Assembly (NCBI GenBank): GCA_018396995.1
Contig: JAGTQB010000002.1
Location: 1 to 64,000, forward strand
Source: Candidatus Bathyarchaeota archaeon
Lineage (GTDB): Archaea; Thermoproteota; Bathyarchaeia; Bathyarchaeales; DTEX01
Length of the DNA: 64,000 nt
Direction: 5' to 3'
Below are positions 55,877-56,104 of the stretch, piece by piece. Made by a program: the position numbers and the translations under genes. The notes below the pieces were generated by a model, which worked only from the letters and a program-made list of their open reading frames with translations, did not search any database and had not been told where the DNA came from. How positions within the stretch are numbered: the first letter of the stretch is position 1; each line of letters begins with the position of its first letter.

Positions 55877-55889
55877 GGGACTTGAACCC
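55877..55889 (-). repeat. T-arm-like remnant GGGTTCAAGTCCC beside the tRNA gene, sharing an 11-bp direct repeat with its T-loop
   Basis: ggacttgaacc at 55878-55888 repeats at 55910-55920. Confidence 0.5.
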
Positions 55890-55895
55890 AAAAGG

Positions 55896-56010
55896 TGGTG
55901 GGCCGGGCCGGACTTGAACCGGCGACCTTACAGAACCCTCTTAGAGGGTTTCTGCGCCTCCCGGTTCTCGCTGTCAGGCAGACGTCCTAACCATGCTAGA
56001 CGACCGGCCC
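55896..56010 (-). tRNA. tRNA-Val (GAC), encoded CCA, apparently with two introns (about 15 nt in the anticodon loop, about 22 nt at the variable region)
   Basis: Acceptor GGGCCGG/CCGGCCC, T-arm GCCGG-TTCAAGT-CCGGC, ACCA end; anticodon stem TCTGC/GCAGA closes CTGACA only if GCGAGAACCGGGAGG is removed; AACCCTCTAAGAGGGTTCTGTA lies before the 5-nt variable loop. Confidence 0.82.
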
Positions 56011-56104
56011 GCTTCCTAATTTTATACCTTCACAATATTCTTATAATTCTTGCTATAAAGTTTTTGTGTTCTCTGATAAGATTTAAAAAAGAGAGGGAGA
56101 GTAG

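Follow-up and report, generated by a model that had tools for sequence, protein, structure and literature searches.

Is the tRNA-Val(GAC) gene on the minus strand of the window (the whole stretch of 64,000 nucleotides from a Candidatus Bathyarchaeota archaeon that was analysed) a working gene, and how would its interruptions be removed? The gene (56010..55899, read directly) is 112 nt long and gives a canonical 75-nt tRNA only once 15 nt and 22 nt are removed from it. Comparison of related sequences suggests, with a probability of about 0.9, that it is a working tRNA gene with two introns, which are removed at bulge-helix-bulge (BHB) motifs at 36|37 and 44|45. The features of the locus are listed in the table.

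Features of the tRNA-Val(GAC) locus (positions in the window; mature tRNA numbering where positions 1-73 are given)
Feature	Position	Strand	Basis
Exon 1, mature positions 1-36; anticodon GAC at 55973-55975	55973..56010	-	near-identical to intronless orthologues, few positions differ
Intron 1, 15 nt, AGCGAGAACCGGGAG, preferred site 36|37	55958..55972	-	orthologue comparison and BHB geometry
Exon 2, positions 37-44, 8 nt, GCGCAGAA	55950..55957	-	orthologue comparison and excision search
Intron 2, 22 nt, ACCCTCTAAGAGGGTTCTGTAA, preferred site 44|45	55928..55949	-	orthologue comparison, BHB geometry and excision search
Exon 3, positions 45-73	55899..55927	-	Rfam match and orthologue comparison
CCA end, encoded	55896..55898	-	read directly
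BHB1 central helix, 5' strand CCUG (31-34)	55975..55978	-	
BHB1 central helix, 3' strand CGGG within intron 1 (CAGG in other species)	55960..55963	-	
BHB2 central helix, 5' strand GCAG (39-42), also the 3' strand of the anticodon stem	55952..55955	-	
BHB2 central helix, 3' strand CUGU within intron 2 (CUGC in others)	55930..55933	-	
Probable TATA box CTTTATAG, ~45-50 nt upstream of the gene	56053..56060	-	upstream regions compared by eye

Identity of the gene and its intronless relatives

The Rfam tRNA model matches the gene with a score of 46.3 bits (E 1.1e-6) and opens insertions in two places, the anticodon loop and the variable region. ARAGORN calls no tRNA at this locus in its default mode and miscalls it as Ser(GCT) in its intron mode; the two introns explain why a standard finder misses or miscalls the gene. 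The genome (1.46 Mb, 42 contigs, 98.5% complete) yields 47 candidate tRNA hits with no second Val(GAC) gene among them, and this gene is the sole valine tRNA gene detected there for the GUC/GUU codons.

Both inserts are present in all ten other species of the genus, with genes of 111-119 nt and identities of 83-91%. The genome G022, which represents another family of the order, also has a Val(GAC) gene with both inserts at the same two positions, and these shared positions could have arisen by common descent followed by losses, by transfer, or by gains that recurred at the same sites. The sister genera g3 and g5, which belong to the same family as this genus, and further families carry a contiguous gene, TCTGC CTGACGC GCAGA AGGTC. 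The mature exons are fixed, because the sister genera carry the same tRNA without the inserts. Excision of AGCGAGAACCGGGAG and ACCCTCTAAGAGGGTTCTGTAA from the window gene leaves exactly the arrangement of these intronless orthologues, by which both inserts are judged to be missing from the mature tRNA, and the equivalent double removal yields 75 nt in 11 of the 11 sequences compared. The exons are near-invariant across 11 species, while the introns diverge, varying in sequence and length outside the strands of the central helices. The CCA end is encoded in 10 of the 11 related genes, the exception being G010 (CTA), and a TTTATAA-like core upstream of the gene is common to the genus, as compared by eye.

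These results bear out what the earlier note on this DNA had proposed, namely the isotype Val(GAC) (from the Rfam match and the orthologues), the two introns of 15 and 22 nt (from the orthologues, the BHB geometry and the unique excision product described below), and a 75-nt tRNA that arises only after both removals. The host is not a member of the Thermoproteales, the group in which, according to the note, such introns are mainly known. It belongs to a Bathyarchaeia lineage, since a protein encoded nearby has its closest named relatives in the Candidatus Bathyarchaeota MAGs JZ_bin_36.1, JZ_bin_14, JZ_bin_36.3 and JZ_bin_36.2 (72-80% identity), whose isolate names suggest a hot-spring origin.

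Directly 3' of the gene, after a T run, the minus strand carries a T arm-like stretch, GGGTTCAAGTCCC (55877-55889). Stretches that resemble it are also present 3' of the Val(GAC) gene in G004, G009 and G002. A terminator, a promoter region and the remnant of a tRNA are all possible identities.

BHB motifs of the two inserts

When the cuts are placed at 36|37 and 44|45, both introns show the same arrangement. The exon segment just before the 5' cut forms a 4-bp helix with the intron segment just before the 3' cut, and each cut lies 2 nt beyond a strand of this central helix. At intron 1 (BHB1), CCUG(31-34) pairs with CGGG or CAGG at all four positions in 11 of the 11 sequences. At intron 2 (BHB2), GCAG(39-42) pairs with CUGU or CUGC at all four positions in 10 of the 11 sequences, and at three of four in G022. 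The strict hBHBh' form (two 3-nt bulges and both flanking helices), which is not demanded of all members, is not seen. BHB1 is relaxed in that its 3' bulge is 5 nt rather than 3 and that the window gene has almost no inner helix, and BHB2 is relaxed in that its outer helix is short (2-3 bp). Relaxed motifs are known substrates of (alpha-beta)2 enzymes (PMC7714728). When the introns of the window gene are shuffled, the central helix arises by chance in 3.9% and 1.5% of cases for introns 1 and 2, respectively, and both arise together in 0.05%.

An unbiased search covered every excision with BHB geometry, one alone or two in sequence, and kept those after which a strict cloverleaf remained. For every one of the ten genus sequences, which are from related species and thus not independent trials, double excision gives exactly one product, always identical to the intronless orthologue. 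Single excision gives no cloverleaf in these ten sequences. The search gives no solution for G022, because its BHB2 has three pairs. When the inserts are shuffled, some BHB-consistent double-excision cloverleaf is obtained in 4% of trials with the window gene alone. Actual cleavage of both introns, the exact phosphates that are cut and the order of removal discussed below are all inferred.

The inspection for BHB motifs that the earlier note had recommended thus reveals, at both inserts, the geometry used by the archaeal splicing endonuclease, in relaxed form. The anticodon-loop intron that it had proposed is confirmed, with the exact site better placed at 36|37, one nucleotide upstream of the canonical 37/38. 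The competition that it had noticed between an insert and the anticodon stem is present as the GCAG(39-42)/CUGY pairing; this pairing is not a side effect, but the central helix of BHB2 and the conserved part of the insert. The hairpin CCCTCT/AGAGGG can form in the window gene, but its tip differs among species.

Three other readings of the gene were weighed. Intron 1 may be located at 37/38, the commonest archaeal intron site, such that the mature tRNA has A37 instead of G37. In the same BHB test, excision at 37/38 is compatible with the genome's Val(CAC) gene, and A37 is found in intronless orthologues from other families. However, the central helix would then require CUGA/GGGA pairing, which fails, and U37 would result in the species G003, G001 and G010; the unbiased excision search returns only 36|37, and the sister genera have G37. 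This placement is improbable. It is highly improbable that insert 2 is retained as a long variable arm. Insert 2 of the window gene can fold into a strong hairpin, but several species have a weaker or altered version of it, whereas the segment that can pair with the anticodon stem is conserved. Retention would leave the competing pairing in the mature RNA, and the variable loop of the orthologues is 5 nt. Valine tRNAs belong to class I. A decaying pseudogene, for which the failure of standard tRNA finders at this locus may speak, has the smallest chance of the three, given that the introns diverge around near-invariant exons, that the CCA end and the promoter-like element are retained, and that no other Val(GAC) gene is detected in the genome.

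Two roles were considered for intron 1. Its GAACCGG stretch can pair with the T arm, but is not conserved in relatives, and a role as a guide RNA is therefore rejected. To the outer helix of BHB2, intron 1 adds one pair in most species and none in G008 or G022, and we do not claim that this helix requires it.

Competing motifs and the order of splicing

Nucleotides 39-42 form the 5' strand of the BHB2 central helix. In the anticodon stem, which makes up the outer helix of BHB1, the same nucleotides form the 3' strand. BHB1 and BHB2 are mutually exclusive, because both need these nucleotides, and the introns would therefore have to be removed sequentially. In constrained folding of the full precursor with ViennaRNA, which takes no account of protein binding or tertiary structure, the ten genus sequences all favour BHB2 over BHB1, with margins of 3.7-12.7 kcal/mol at 37 C and 2.2-7.8 kcal/mol at 70 C. 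The order of stabilities is reversed in G022, in which BHB1 is favoured. This folding suggests that intron 2, in the variable region, is probably removed first and intron 1 second, because the BHB of intron 2 is more stable in the full precursor.

In the mechanism that we propose, BHB2 would sequester the 3' strand of the anticodon stem, such that intron 1 is not recognised until intron 2 is gone. The splicing endonuclease would excise each intron at its BHB motif. Removal of intron 2 would release GCAGA, the anticodon stem would re-form as the outer helix of BHB1, and tRNA ligase would join the exons to give the 75-nt tRNA. We put at about even the odds that the precursor is a folding switch of this kind, which forces ordered splicing, in a Bathyarchaeia lineage that independently has many disrupted tRNA genes in a Thermoproteales-like manner, including the permuted tRNA-Arg described below. 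It is possible, rather than probable, that the order is free or that intron 1 is removed first, an alternative that concerns the order alone. Once intron 1 is removed in silico, the anticodon stem remains less stable than BHB2 at 37 C in each of the 11 sequences, such that either route may give the same product, and G022 favours BHB1 first. The preference for BHB2 in the full precursor of all ten genus sequences argues against this alternative. It is already recognised that closely spaced introns can impose an order of removal (PMC8450103), and nested introns are likewise cited in a review (PMC3978253).

Splicing endonuclease and other disrupted tRNA genes

The genome contains two PF01974 genes, as do most of 60 relatives. 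The alpha protein (188 aa) matches Aeropyrum pernix EndA (3p1z_B) with an E value of 1.1e-44 and keeps the Tyr/His/Lys triad. Its K42 and K44 align with K44 and R46 of A. pernix, so that the crenarchaea-specific loop is present with its conserved Lys and a nearby Arg/Lys; these loop residues are described in PMC12397907. The beta protein (201 aa) also matches EndA, but lacks the His at the catalytic place and thus the full triad. The two genes are predicted to encode a catalytic alpha and a non-catalytic beta subunit, which is the (alpha-beta)2 pattern associated with relaxed BHB motifs (PMC7714728; PMC4090602). The Bathyarchaeia enzyme resembles that of A. pernix (3p1z) in having a catalytic alpha with the crenarchaeal loop K..K/R and a separate non-catalytic beta, but differs from it in that beta is similar to alpha in length and best matches the solved EndA alpha chains. 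Its assembly into an (alpha-beta)2 heterotetramer and its activity, with cleavage of relaxed motifs, are predicted.

According to the same excision test, two BHB excisions are needed for a cloverleaf of tRNA-Val(UAC) and tRNA-Arg(UCU), on contigs C1 and C23, and one is needed for Val(CAC), Ala(CGC), Arg(CCU), Thr(GGU), Gln(UUG), Arg(CCG) and Asn(GUU). Two-intron tRNAs are not unusual in this genome, because Val(UAC) and Arg(UCU) also need two excisions. Inserts at similar positions also occur in the Val(UAC) gene of G011, a genome of a sister genus. By eye, L040, L041, L125 and L127, which are Lys(CUU), Asn(GUU), probable Trp(CCA) and Tyr(GUA), respectively, apparently have at least two introns, and the probable Trp(CCA) gene contains box C/D-like motifs; the excision test gives no strict solution for L040, L041 and L127. 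No gene for tRNA-His, Glu(UUC), Leu(UAG) or Arg(UCG) is recognised in the whole genome, even at a loose threshold, possibly because these genes are heavily broken, split or permuted, or fall into assembly gaps.

The same contig carries, outside the window, a circularly permuted tRNA-Arg(GCG) gene (C12:84956-85071, minus strand), in which the order of the halves is swapped, such that the 3' half, including the CCA, comes first and a 9-nt linker separates it from the 5' half. The halves join at 37/38 via a BHB formed by the two transcript ends, with a central helix of CUGC/GCAG, bulges of GG|A and AG|A and an inner helix of 7-11 bp. The permuted gene is present in 12 species of two genera, and compensatory changes alter the sequence of the inner helix while its pairing is kept. 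In G007 and G011, the gene is in ordinary order with the same joint. A 2014 review gives only two archaeal permuted tRNA genes, both from Thermofilum pendens and both at 59/60 (PMC3978253). No later archaeal report was found in the searchable literature, which does not prove its absence. The permuted gene is perhaps a more notable result than the two-intron Val gene.

Multi-intron tRNA genes are of a kind already known from Thermoproteales and Caldiarchaeum, and came previously mostly from another archaeal order. In Thermoproteales (Pyrobaculum, Thermofilum), a single tRNA gene may carry as many as three small BHB introns, at canonical as well as noncanonical sites, and some of these lie so near each other that the BHB of one can form only after the other has been excised (PMC8450103; PMC4033280). 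The Val(GAC) gene likewise has small, closely spaced BHB introns, but it belongs to the class Bathyarchaeia, its sites are 36|37 and 44|45, and its two motifs contest the same four exon bases. The tRNA-Thr(GGU) gene of Caldiarchaeum subterraneum, a non-Thermoproteales archaeon, has two noncanonical introns at 24/25 and 45/46, with population variants that have fewer introns (PMC3293823). It is similar in having two introns, one of them in the variable region, and the Val(GAC) gene differs from it in isotype, in sites and in that both introns occur across a Bathyarchaeia genus. No earlier report of two-intron tRNA genes in Bathyarchaeia was found in the literature searched.

The Val(GAC) gene extends multi-intron noncanonical tRNA splicing to Bathyarchaeia, and the 11 related genes provide a series for studying competing splice motifs, intron gain and ordered splicing. 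Together with the permuted tRNA-Arg, it suggests that disruption of tRNA genes tracks the type of splicing endonuclease, and not one archaeal order.
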